NCBI GenBank assembly: GCA_013696965.1
Contig: JACCXN010000106.1
Coordinates: 1-33,025 of the forward strand
DNA length: 33,025 bases
Direction: 5' to 3'
Source of the DNA: Bacteroidota bacterium
GTDB taxonomy: Bacteria > Bacteroidota > Bacteroidia > JACCXN01
Each line of letters begins with the position of its first letter. Position 1 is the stretch's first letter. The position numbers were made by a program, and so were the translations under genes. This document shows, in pieces, positions 93 to 32,923 of this stretch. The notes under the pieces are model-generated. The model was not told where the DNA came from. It made no database searches and saw nothing but the letters and a program-made list of their open reading frames with translations.

Positions 93-102
93 AAATTTGC
101 AG

Positions 103-125
103 CCCCCAACTTTTCCGCTTGATCC
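103..125 (+). repeat. IS right terminal inverted repeat
   Basis: The complement of 103-125 reads GGATCAAGCGGAAAAG followed by TTGGGGG. It is identical over 23 bases to 32901-32923 on the plus strand. It lies 10 bases after the transposase stop and ends exactly where host gene sequence resumes, as expected of an IRR. Weaker similarity continues inward: an AATATTT..TGC..AGAAAT pattern occurs beside both copies. Confidence 0.8.
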
Positions 126-193
126 ATTTTATTTCTTCCGTTAACGCAAATGATTACAGAACTGCTCAAAGAGTGGCGATTAATAAATATTAA
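126..193 (+). pseudogene. Decapitated T9SS cargo gene: last ~20 codons of a type A C-terminal sorting domain
   Basis: Reading from 128 the frame gives FISSVNANDYRTAQRVAINK plus Y and a TAA stop at 191-193. This aligns with the final residues of the intact T9SS protein ending at 3445 (LISSVDTNGN then RTAQRVVINK). By eye about 50 of 61 nucleotides agree between 129-189 and the corresponding stretch near 3383-3443. Similarity stops abruptly at the insertion-sequence boundary at 125, so the rest of this gene was separated from its tail by the insertion or lies beyond the element. The remnant has no start and should not be expressed as a protein. It was probably a paralogous neighbour of the gene at 890. 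Confidence 0.75.
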
Positions 194-417
194 ATCCTAA
201 ATACTTTTCCATAAAAAACGCCTCGGCAAATACCCGGAATTTTTAAAGAGAAATTTAAAAATATTGATCCGTTTTTTTCTCTGTCATTCTTTTTCGGATC
301 AAGCCTATTTTTCCTTTCACAAACAAATTTATTGATCCTTTAAGGATTTAGAGTTTTTTATAGGCATTAATATACAGTTAATTTAAGATAAAAAGCAATT
401 AATAGAATAAATATTTA

Positions 418-474: not shown

Positions 475-870
475 ATGAAGAAAACAAATTACTTTAAAAT
501 TGCGGCATTTTCGGCAGTCTTTATTTTAGCTTCTCAAGGGGTATTTTCGCAAGAAAGAACTGCCTCACGATCTGAATCAAAAGGTGATGTGAAAATTGAA
601 GATCGCCTGGCTTATACTTCTGATGATGAAGTAAAACAATTTATGAAAGAGGTAATAGCCTCAGATTTACCAGCAGATTATAAAGTTCCTGCTTATGTGA
701 AAAATGCTAAAAGTATGCAAGATGCTTCTAAAGCAGTGGGAGCCTATTTTCCGGAGTTTTACGGAAAGTATAGTAATGAACTGCTATTGGCTATTCGCAG
801 AAATCCGGCTAGATACAAACAAATGATGTTTGATTCTAAAGCCATCAGAAATCAATTTCCGTTAAATTAA
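475..870 (+). CDS. Small secreted protein of unknown function
   Basis: 131 residues. The N-terminus (MKKTNYFK, then a hydrophobic run about residues 9-24, then VFSQ) is a typical signal peptide, with likely cleavage near residue 25. The mature part is about 105 residues, charged and probably helical, without cysteines or a motif I recognise. It ends only 19 bases before the start of the large T9SS cargo gene, so the two are probably co-transcribed and may work together at the cell surface. It lacks a T9SS sorting domain of its own. The ATG was chosen because it puts the signal peptide at the very N-terminus. Function unknown; no family recognised. Confidence 0.75.
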   Translation: MKKTNYFKIAAFSAVFILASQGVFSQERTASRSESKGDVKIEDRLAYTSDDEVKQFMKEVIASDLPADYKVPAYVKNAKSMQDASKAVGAYFPEFYGKYSNELLLAIRRNPARYKQMMFDSKAIRNQFPLN

Positions 871-889: not shown

Positions 890-3445
890 ATGAAATTTTT
901 ATTAAAACTTATATTGCCTGTCCTTCTTTTAGGAGGATTTAATGCAATGGCGCAGCCATTTTGTGACCAGCCACAATCTGGCCCTGGCTTTTCAACTTCA
1001 CCTTCTTGTGAAAGTTCTATTTGTGCTTCTGATCCTTATTGCTGTAATACTCAATGGGATGGTATTTGTGCTTCATCAGCTACAACCAATGCAAATTGCA
1101 CAACGTGTCTATCTACCTACCAACCTCCATGTTCTACACCTCCCGCTATTATAAGTAACTTTGTTATAACACTTACAGCTGGGGGTTTTCAAGATGAAAT
1201 CGGATGGAATTTTGCTGATGGCAGTAGTACAATTTTGGTATCGGGAGGCCCAAATACTGCAGGAACTTATAACGTATCCAGTGGAAGCGGCCCCTTTAGC
1301 TTTTCTTTAGAAACTCAGGGAAGTTGGAACGATAATGTAATAAGTTATGAGATAAGCTGTAATGGAACTGTTGTTTTATCAGGAACTATGGTGGGAGGAA
1401 ATGCTAATACATTTTCTGTGCCTTCCTGCACTAACTTGCCTGCAGCAGCAGTTCAATGTGGTGGCTCGGTTACTGCACCAACTGCACAAAGTGCTTGCTA
1501 CGGAACAATAACAGGTACTACAAGCAATGCTACTACTTTTACATCAGTGGGTTCATATACTATAAACTGGACTTTTAATGATGGCGCCAGTGGTGTTTCT
1601 AACTATCCTCAAACAGTGACGGTTACTGATAATACCGCCCCGGTTGCGGATGTTGCTACTTTAACAACAATTACTGCTCTGTGTGAGGTTACTGCACTTA
1701 CTGCGCCAACAGCAACTGATAACTGCGATGGTTCAATCACAGCTACGCATAATGCTACTTTACCAATTAGCAGCAATACTACCATTACCTGGACGTACAC
1801 AGATGCCAGCACTAACTCATCAACTCAAACCCAGGACGTAGTTATTAATGATAACACTGCTCCAATTGAGGATGTTTCTACTTTAACAACAATTACTTCT
1901 CAGTGTGCTGTTACTGCACTTACCGCACCAACAGCAACTGATAATTGCACTGGTTCAATCACAGGTACGCATAATGCTACTTTACCAATTAGCAGCAACA
2001 CTACCATTATCTGGACGTACACAGATGCAAATGGTAACAGCGCAACTCAAACCCAGGACGTAGTTATTAATGATAACATTGCCCCGGTTGAGGATGCTGC
2101 TACTTTAACAACCATTACTGCTCAATGTGAGGTTACTGCACTTACTGGCCCAACAGCAACTGATAACTGCGATGGCCCAATCACAGGTATGCATAATGCT
2201 ACTTTACCAATTAGCAGCAATACCACCATTATCTGGACTTATACAGATGCAAACGGTAACAGTGCAACTCAAACCCAGGAGGTAGTTATTAATGATAACA
2301 TTGCCCCGGTTGAGGATGTTGCTACTTTAACAACCATTACTGCTCTGTGTGAGGTTACTGCACTTACTGCGCCAACAGCAACTGATAACTGCGATGGTTC
2401 AATTACGGGTATGCATAACGCTACTTTACCAATTAGCAGCAACACCACCATTACCTGGTCTTATGAGGATGCTAACGGTAACATAACAACCCAAACACAG
2501 GATGTGGTTATAAATGATAACATTGCTCCGGTTGAGGATGTTGCTACTTTAACAACCATTACTGCTCAGTGCGAAGTTACTTCACTTACTGCTCCAACTG
2601 CTACTGATAATTGCACTGGTTCAATCGCAGGTACGCATAATGCTACTTTACCAATTAGCAGCAACACCACCATTACCTGGTCTTATGAGGATGCTAATGG
2701 TAATATAACAACTCAAACCCAGGATGTAGTTATGAATGATGACATTGCTCCTGTAGCTGATGTTGCTTCGTTGCCAACTATTAATTCTTCATGTGAGGTT
2801 ACTTCACTAACAGCACAAACAGCAACTGATAATTGCGATGGTTCAATTACAGGTACGCATGATGCTACTTTACCTATTAGCGGAACTACAGGACCTACAA
2901 CTGTTACCTGGACCTATACAGATGCAAATGGAAATACATCAACACAAACTCAGGATGTGATTATTAACATGGTAAGTGTTAATGTTGTAGTTGATGCAAC
3001 TGGTAGCGAGCTTACTGCCGATTATACTGTATCAGGTGCTACTTACCAGTGGTATAATTGTACAACTCAGCAACCAATAGCAGGAGAAGTTGGTGTTTCT
3101 TATGTTCCAACAACAAACGGTAATTATTCTGTTGAAGTAATAGACGGAAACTGTATCTTTATGTCGAATTGTGAACTTATATCTACAGTAAGTATTAAAG
3201 AAACTGCAGCAAACAATTTATTCAGAATTTTTCCAAATCCAAACAACGGAAACTTTACAATAGAAACCGGGACTGCGGTTATAATTGAAATGGTTAACGC
3301 TGTTGGTCAGGTGGTTTTAAATAAATCATTTACTGCAGGAGTAAACCAGATTAACATTGAAAATGTAAGCAGCGGATTATATTTAATTTCTTCTGTTGAT
3401 ACAAATGGAAACAGAACTGCCCAAAGAGTAGTGATTAATAAATAA
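890..3445 (+). CDS. T9SS cargo protein with tandem HYR-like repeats and a type A C-terminal sorting domain
   Basis: 851 residues. Signal peptide about 1-21 (ending AMAQ). Next comes a cysteine-rich module about residues 25-75 with the pattern CASDPYCCNTQWDGICAS, seen in many secreted bacterial proteins. After a less regular region and one divergent repeat (about 188-246), six near-identical ~74-residue units fill residues 247-693. Each has two cysteines, an ATDNC(D/T)GSI core and an NATLPISSNTTI..W strand, resembling HYR-like immunoglobulin-type domains. The last ~75 residues (LFRIFPNPNNGNFTIE ... SSGLYLISS ... AQRVVINK) are a T9SS type A sorting domain, so the protein should be exported through the type IX system and either anchored on the surface or released. 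No catalytic domain is visible. An adhesive or structural role is inference. Confidence 0.88.
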   Translation: MKFLLKLILPVLLLGGFNAMAQPFCDQPQSGPGFSTSPSCESSICASDPYCCNTQWDGICASSATTNANCTTCLSTYQPPCSTPPAIISNFVITLTAGGFQDEIGWNFADGSSTILVSGGPNTAGTYNVSSGSGPFSFSLETQGSWNDNVISYEISCNGTVVLSGTMVGGNANTFSVPSCTNLPAAAVQCGGSVTAPTAQSACYGTITGTTSNATTFTSVGSYTINWTFNDGASGVSNYPQTVTVTDNTAPVADVATLTTITALCEVTALTAPTATDNCDGSITATHNATLPISSNTTITWTYTDASTNSSTQTQDVVINDNTAPIEDVSTLTTITSQCAVTALTAPTATDNCTGSITGTHNATLPISSNTTIIWTYTDANGNSATQTQDVVINDNIAPVEDAATLTTITAQCEVTALTGPTATDNCDGPITGMHNATLPISSNTTIIWTYTDANGNSATQTQEVVINDNIAPVEDVATLTTITALCEVTALTAPTATDNCDGSITGMHNATLPISSNTTITWSYEDANGNITTQTQDVVINDNIAPVEDVATLTTITAQCEVTSLTAPTATDNCTGSIAGTHNATLPISSNTTITWSYEDANGNITTQTQDVVMNDDIAPVADVASLPTINSSCEVTSLTAQTATDNCDGSITGTHDATLPISGTTGPTTVTWTYTDANGNTSTQTQDVIINMVSVNVVVDATGSELTADYTVSGATYQWYNCTTQQPIAGEVGVSYVPTTNGNYSVEVIDGNCIFMSNCELISTVSIKETAANNLFRIFPNPNNGNFTIETGTAVIIEMVNAVGQVVLNKSFTAGVNQINIENVSSGLYLISSVDTNGNRTAQRVVINK
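1628..2968 (+). repeat. Six tandem in-frame 222-base repeats within the T9SS cargo gene
   Basis: Units begin GATAA(C/T)A or GATGACA (Asp-Asn/Asp-Ile/Thr-Ala-Pro) at 1628, 1850, 2072, 2294, 2516 and 2738. The five intervals are each exactly 222 bases (74 codons). The sixth unit is 231 bases because of a GTTGPT-type insertion. Units are nearly identical in DNA as well as protein, which suggests recent duplication or gene conversion. Confidence 0.93.
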
Positions 3446-3461
3446 AGTTAAAGTTTCTCTT

Positions 3462-3495
3462 AAAAAAGCCCGGGCATTTGCCCGGGCTTTTTTTA
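3462..3495 (+). terminator. Strong intrinsic terminator after the T9SS cargo gene
   Basis: The stem pairs GCCCGGGC (3468-3475) with GCCCGGGC (3480-3487) around an ATTT loop. It is flanked by six A's on the left and seven T's on the right, so it can act in both directions. It starts 16 bases after the stop codon at 3445. Confidence 0.9.
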
Positions 3496-4440
3496 TGGAG
3501 TTTTGATTTTTTTTCCTATACGAAGGCAATAAAGCACGGACTATTCAAAATGTAACAAGCCCGTACTTTTAGCTATGAAATGTTAGCAACTGTTTTTATT
3601 ATTCAACAATTAATTTCACCACCCTTATAACTGTCTTTTCTGATTAAATATTTTTTAAATATATAAGGCAGAATAAAGATCATTCGTATTAATCACTTTT
3701 TTAATTCTTTCAATTATCCTTTATTTCAATTCATCCCTCAAAAGACTAAAAAGTTTGAAATAAAAATATTTATTTTCTTAATTACCAACTCTGATTTAAT
3801 TTCCTTTTCGCACCGGATTAGTGTATATAATTAAATCTAAATAGGTTTCATACACTGGGGTGGAGCAAAAGAATTCCAGGTTCCACATTAAGCACTGCCC
3901 TTTGGCTTGCGCTTCATCTTAGCGCCCAAAGAGCTTCAACTTAGCTCGGACAGGGTCGTTTTCAAAAAAGGCGAAATAGTTTTAGACGCAAATAATATTT
4001 GCACAAATAGTTATTTCATTAACAATGGAAGAATCAAAACTTAAATCCTTTGACTTTATAGTCATAAATAACAAGCAGATCCTGATAAAAAACAATGACC
4101 TGAAAGTTGCTGATTTATTTAAACGTTTGAATTTACCTTTCGGAAACAATATAGGTTTATCCAAATATATTTTTTGCATGTATGCTTTCATTTACTATGC
4201 CTAAGAAAAATTCAAAAGTGCATATTTACACTAATCAAAAAAGCCTTTCAAAGAAAAAAGATCTTTACCCTTCCAATACGGGAAAGACAAAAGTTTATCA
4301 ACCAATTTAGTATTAATTTAAATGTATTAAATTACTACAAAACACTTGTGTAACGAATTATTACAGAATGCAAAAAAACGGCTTAAAACAGCATACTTTT
4401 TTTGTTTGTACTTTCGTGGGGGACAAATAATTCAAATTCC
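3496..4440. other. Long AT-rich intergenic stretch with one GC-richer hairpin
   Basis: About 945 bases lie between the terminator and the next convincing gene. Most is AT-rich without coding signals. A GC-richer island about 3850-3960 contains an imperfect hairpin at 3900-3931 (CTTTGG..GCGC, a 9-base loop, GCGC CCAAAG). It resembles a repeat or gene remnant more than a terminator, because no T-run follows. A weak small frame at 4025-4204 is listed separately. Confidence 0.5.
4025..4204 (+). CDS. Doubtful 59-residue reading frame
   Basis: The frame starts at ATG 4025 (MEESKLKSFDFIVINNKQ) and ends at TAA 4202-4204. The first 45 residues have ordinary composition (KNNDLKVADLFKRLNLPFGN). The tail is aromatic and looks less genuine. 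No clear ribosome-binding site or promoter is visible, and I know no family. It could be a small gene, or a gene remnant in an otherwise decayed stretch. It is listed because its amino-acid usage looks more protein-like than the overlapping minus-strand frame. Confidence 0.22.
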   Translation: MEESKLKSFDFIVINNKQILIKNNDLKVADLFKRLNLPFGNNIGLSKYIFCMYAFIYYA

Positions 4441-32900: not shown

Positions 32901-32923
32901 GGATCAAGCGGAAAAGTTGGGGG
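32901..32923 (+). repeat. IS left terminal inverted repeat
   Basis: It reads GGATCAAGCGGAAAAG then TTGGGGG, the exact complement of 103-125. With that copy it defines the tip of the element family. Confidence 0.8.

Follow-up and report, generated by a model that had tools for sequence, protein, structure and literature searches.

How did the final 21 codons of a T9SS cargo gene come to stand alone beside the tip of an insertion sequence (IS) at the edge of a contig? The window we analyzed, 33,025 nucleotides, is the whole of contig C106 in a 3.86-Mb Bacteroidota genome assembly of 106 contigs, and the left flank of its first IS copy falls beyond the contig, which stops inside the IS. On the plus strand, positions 1-91 encode the 3' end of the gene for an ISL3-family DDE transposase (the C-terminal ~29 amino acids, ending in NAKIKAFRSAFRGVRNVSFFLFRLANIYA, with the stop codon at 89-91), and the left tip of an ISAon1-type IS, a terminal inverted repeat (CCCCCAACTTTTCCGCTTGATCC), occupies positions 103-125 of the same strand. 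Positions 1-125 were 100% identical to the other left ends of the same IS in the genome. The 23-bp tip CCCCCAACTTTTCCGCTTGATCC was present genome-wide in 18 exact copies and two mismatched ones (20 at ≤3 mismatches), while its reversed control had none. Since the genomic copies of the tip were located mostly at contig ends, it was IS copies that broke the assembly, including at both ends of the window, and the identity of the IS ends among copies marks the IS activity as recent.

The family assignment draws on other copies of the element. A longer stretch (38 amino acids) of the same transposase C-terminus on contigs C17 and C60 matched PF01610 (DDE_Tnp_ISL3) above the cut-off, and the piece in the window is identical to its last part. 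A separate N-terminal open reading frame at the opposite end of the IS, found in a right-end fragment on C1, matched NF049916, the model for the ISAon1 family transposase N-terminal region (72 bits; cut-off 55). Together with the terminal inverted repeats and 8-bp target duplications, these matches liken the element to ISAon1-type/ISL3 elements, and the contig start belongs to an ISL3-family, ISAon1-type IS, of which it is the left end. In contrast with a full element of this type, the copies in this genome are broken at contig ends, and none was recovered at full length. The contig closes (32901-33025, minus strand, with the inverted tip at 32901-32923) in a further copy of this IS, represented by its right end, which has no target-duplication partner; this copy sits directly behind what reads as a tRNA-like gene.

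Directly after the left tip, positions 126-193 (plus strand) hold what is left of a T9SS cargo gene at its 3' end: 21 terminal codons of a type A sorting domain, reading FISSVNANDYRTAQRVAINKY up to the stop at 191-193. In a local alignment, homology to the intact cargo gene farther along the window began exactly at 126, the base after the IS tip, which aligned with position 3381. Over 3381-3444 of the intact gene, 53 of 64 bases were identical (83%), gapless to the stop and with the frame kept, and 6 of the 11 differences fell at third codon positions. The translated remnant, FISSVNANDYRTAQRVAINKY, corresponds to LISSVDTNGNRTAQRVVINK at the end of the intact protein, with one additional residue (Y) preceding the remnant's stop. 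This alignment scored 84, compared with a maximum of 34 among 2000 dinucleotide shuffles, and the coding part alone scored 73, compared with a maximum of 34 among 5000 shuffles. The intact neighbor has the C-terminal domain of T9SS type A cargo proteins (Por_Secre_tail, TIGR04183/PF18962) above the cut-off; the remnant tail, unlike a complete cargo protein, keeps only the last 21 residues of the ~72-position domain and was assigned to it via its DNA identity with that neighbor.

A profile search yielded 148 T9SS sorting-domain hits in this genome, and yet the only genome-wide match to the remnant tail was the intact neighboring gene (E about 3e-12). Because the tail is closest to the gene beside it, a tandem paralogue of that gene most likely stood at the remnant site, and the remnant itself is most likely a dead tail. 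These results bear out an earlier note on this DNA, which had placed a sorting-domain tail directly after an IS tip ending at 125 and had given the tail as four-fifths identical to the end of the intact gene; its further suggestion, that a paralogous cargo gene stood beside the intact one, was a fair inference given that the tail matches this neighbor alone.

The intact gene (890-3445, plus strand) encodes an 851-amino-acid protein with HYR_4C repeats and a sorting domain (PF23237, E 5.5e-38; PF18962, E 1.8e-11; TIGR04183 above the cut-off), the type A sorting domain being encoded at 3227-3439 on the plus strand (TIGR04183, 38.4 bits, E 4.2e-9). Between the remnant and this gene lies an open reading frame for a small secreted hypothetical protein of 131 amino acids (475-870, plus strand), which had no Pfam match above the cut-off, no NCBIfam match and no match among the other relatives searched. 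Behind the intact gene, an intrinsic terminator hairpin is preserved (3462-3493, plus strand), and the region around it (3446-3496) had a predicted folding energy of -24.9 kcal/mol (z -5.3), compared with -4.1 kcal/mol (z 0.05) for the aligned region behind the remnant (196-250, plus strand), where the hairpin is no longer predicted. Past the stop, the alignment between remnant and intact gene continues through the terminator region only with gaps (several indels). We considered this homology as evidence of duplication and rejected it, since hairpins resembling this terminator are present elsewhere in the genome and the part past the stop is thus uninformative.

The terminator that no longer folds would nevertheless fit a different history, in which no full second cargo gene stood here when the IS inserted, its target being instead a 3' remnant that had already decayed or a partial duplication of the neighbor's tail. 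The visible coding homology amounts to only 68 bp, and a search of the assembly with the whole intact protein gave no other HYR-repeat match, so that a similar second gene of this kind was not found. We nonetheless regard a degraded target as improbable, because the tail runs in frame with no interruption, six of its 11 differences from the intact gene are at third positions, and the homology breaks off right at the IS tip, not within the flank.

To pair the IS ends in this genome, we used the short direct repeats that arise from transposition, comparing 7 left ends with 10 right ends. Six of the seven intact left ends had exactly one right-end partner, five through 8 bp (C64-C81, C97-C21, C17-C104, C41-C85 and C45-C38) and one through 10 bp (C90-C103); 8 bp is the classical target-duplication length for the ISL3 family (PMC7643977). 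The 8-bp duplication was thus seen for this IS at paired copies and not at the window's own copy, whose putative 8-bp target-site copy, ATTTTATT (126-133, plus strand), matched none of the 10 right ends and has no partner in the assembly, making this the sole unpaired left end. The unpaired right ends numbered three (the C55 start, the C105 end and the C106 end), and this excess over unpaired left ends indicates that some flanks are absent from the assembly. A draft assembly is enough for this approach: pairing contig ends within an IS by their 8-bp target duplications separates clean insertions from rearrangement ends.

The 5' part of the paralogue was not found in the 3.86-Mb assembly with the sorting-domain profile, a nucleotide query from the 3' end of the intact gene, the whole intact protein or the sorting domain minus its tail, and the next-nearest sorting domains in the assembly were just 42-44% identical. 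We also sought a cargo-gene flank at every contig end bearing an IS tip and found none at the unpaired right ends, whose flanks read as a REP-type transposase-like gene (C105) and tRNA-like genes (C55 and C106). The assembly thus does not hold both gene halves with a matching target duplication, as a simple disruption would leave them. The locus had previously been described as a clear gene disruption, with the 5' part of the cargo gene and a short target duplication expected to the left of the IS. That description holds for the junction, where the IS gives way to cargo-gene homology to the base, but not as a clean insertion, since neither the 5' part nor the partner duplication was found in the assembly.

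A simple insertion could still account for the locus if the cargo gene had been split and both halves survive, the 5' half on DNA missing from the assembly. In its favor, the three unpaired right ends show that the assembly does lack some IS flanks, and contigs are broken at nearly all copies of the IS. However, assembly completeness is estimated at 100%, the explanation demands that an entire gene body, its sorting domain close to 80% identical at the DNA level, be missing, and more missing flanks are required than for a rearrangement; we therefore hold this explanation to be possible but rather unlikely. The contig breaks also bear on whether the junction could be an assembly chimera, with an IS end wrongly attached to a foreign flank, since misjoins usually arise at repeats such as the ~125 bp of IS sequence common to the contig ends. 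Such an error is extremely unlikely here, given that tip and flank meet as they do at the other left ends, six of which are validated by target duplications.

The reading we prefer, at a probability of roughly 0.55, is that the IS entered the upstream member of a tandem pair of cargo genes, whose body was then lost by recombination between IS copies or by an adjacent deletion. Two related T9SS cargo genes would once have lain here in the same orientation; a recent copy of the ISL3-family (ISAon1-type) IS would have entered the 3' end of the upstream gene, ~20 codons before its stop; and the rest of that gene would then have been lost, either via homologous recombination between two IS copies or through an IS-adjacent deletion, leaving its last 21 codons alone beside the IS. 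Recombination or adjacent deletion is suggested because the gene is truncated on one side, no matching repeat is present and the genome holds several near-identical IS copies. Consistent with loss of a paralogue, the tail is in frame and uninterrupted to its stop, while the region past the stop carries several indels; the remnant is just 68 bp long and its left flank is out of sight. Two points of this reading are inferred: the missing part was the bulk of a complete cargo gene, and it disappeared by deletion or rearrangement, not through a gap in the assembly.

A similar pattern has been described for CLJ-ISL3 in Pseudomonas aeruginosa, where recombination deletions and unmatched 8-bp repeats were reported (PMC7643977). 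As in that system, an ISL3-family copy in the window is bordered by a truncated gene and unmatched 8-bp repeats, and surface-component genes were among the losses in P. aeruginosa. The recombination there is backed by related clones, however, whereas only one side is visible in the window. Taken together, the locus is an ordinary IS-associated truncation, in which one member of a tandem pair of T9SS cargo genes was probably lost. It shows a recently active ISL3-family element that is reshaping a Bacteroidota genome, with at least one secreted-protein gene probably lost beside the IS, and the remnant leaves the understanding of T9SS and of IS elements unchanged.

Also in favor of a lost tandem paralogue, tandem cargo genes are common in this genome, whose sorting domains are clustered: 40 of the 148 have another on the same strand within 4 kb, compared with 20 expected from uniform placement and a maximum of 37 in 500 trials. 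The locus itself was absent from the 60 genomes searched, its own genome excepted. Among GTDB representative genomes, the 3' end of the cargo gene had no near relative, the best match being ~35% identical over the full length. The nearest homologue of the intact cargo gene among 40 genomes was 51% identical, and the nearest homologues in this set had no look-alike cargo gene upstream in the DNA available, which in one case is cut by a contig end. A search of the literature for sorting-domain genes disrupted by an IS returned nothing to the point.

The earlier note had also raised IS movement as a route to surface variation. When the flanks of the paired insertions were joined, none of the six lay within a cargo gene; one was inside a response-regulator-like gene, and the others appeared to lie between genes or in short frames that are questionable as genes. 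The unpaired copy on C105 lies, by our reading, in a REP-type transposase-like gene, and across about ten sites no IS copy other than the window's was found in a cargo gene. For the share of the genome taken up by cargo genes, we used the open frames of the top thirty of the 148 sorting-domain hits, which average ~640 amino acids; extended to 148 cargo genes, this estimate gives ~0.29 Mb, or ~7% of the genome. At that share, a single cargo gene hit among about ten sites is no more than chance predicts, and these sites gave no indication that the IS prefers surface-protein genes. With no cargo gene among the six paired sites, hits at chance and no sign of reversibility, surface variation through IS movement is not supported. 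The broader idea that IS movement or recombination repeatedly prunes tandem T9SS cargo arrays, producing strain differences in the secreted surface repertoire, appears very doubtful.

Several other IS-associated sites were noted in the genome. What reads as the 5' part of a VOC/glyoxalase-like gene abuts, near C60:58148, an IS left end whose match breaks off after 82 bp; this is apparently a second IS-associated truncation. The IS on C105 (4368-4793) interrupts a REP-associated-transposase-like gene, to which the IS end adds an in-frame C-terminal tail (DQAEKLGGMNKNHFFAKNILRAKR, followed by a stop). On C9 (1109-1546), the last residues of a small secreted protein (QAEKLGGRNKNH) are encoded by an IS-tip remnant, and a related gene follows. 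Fragments of the two open reading frames of the IS are adjacent and in opposite orientation at about 5780-6184 on C1, an arrangement explained by an inverted, nested copy or by an error of assembly. Finally, the sole IS-tip palindrome in the genome, GGATCAAACGGAAAAGTTGGGGGGAAGAAAATCTCACCAACTTTTCCG (C44:18929-18976), lies ~11 bp behind a T9SS cargo gene and represents a minimal derivative of the IS or else a tip that has taken on the role of a terminator.
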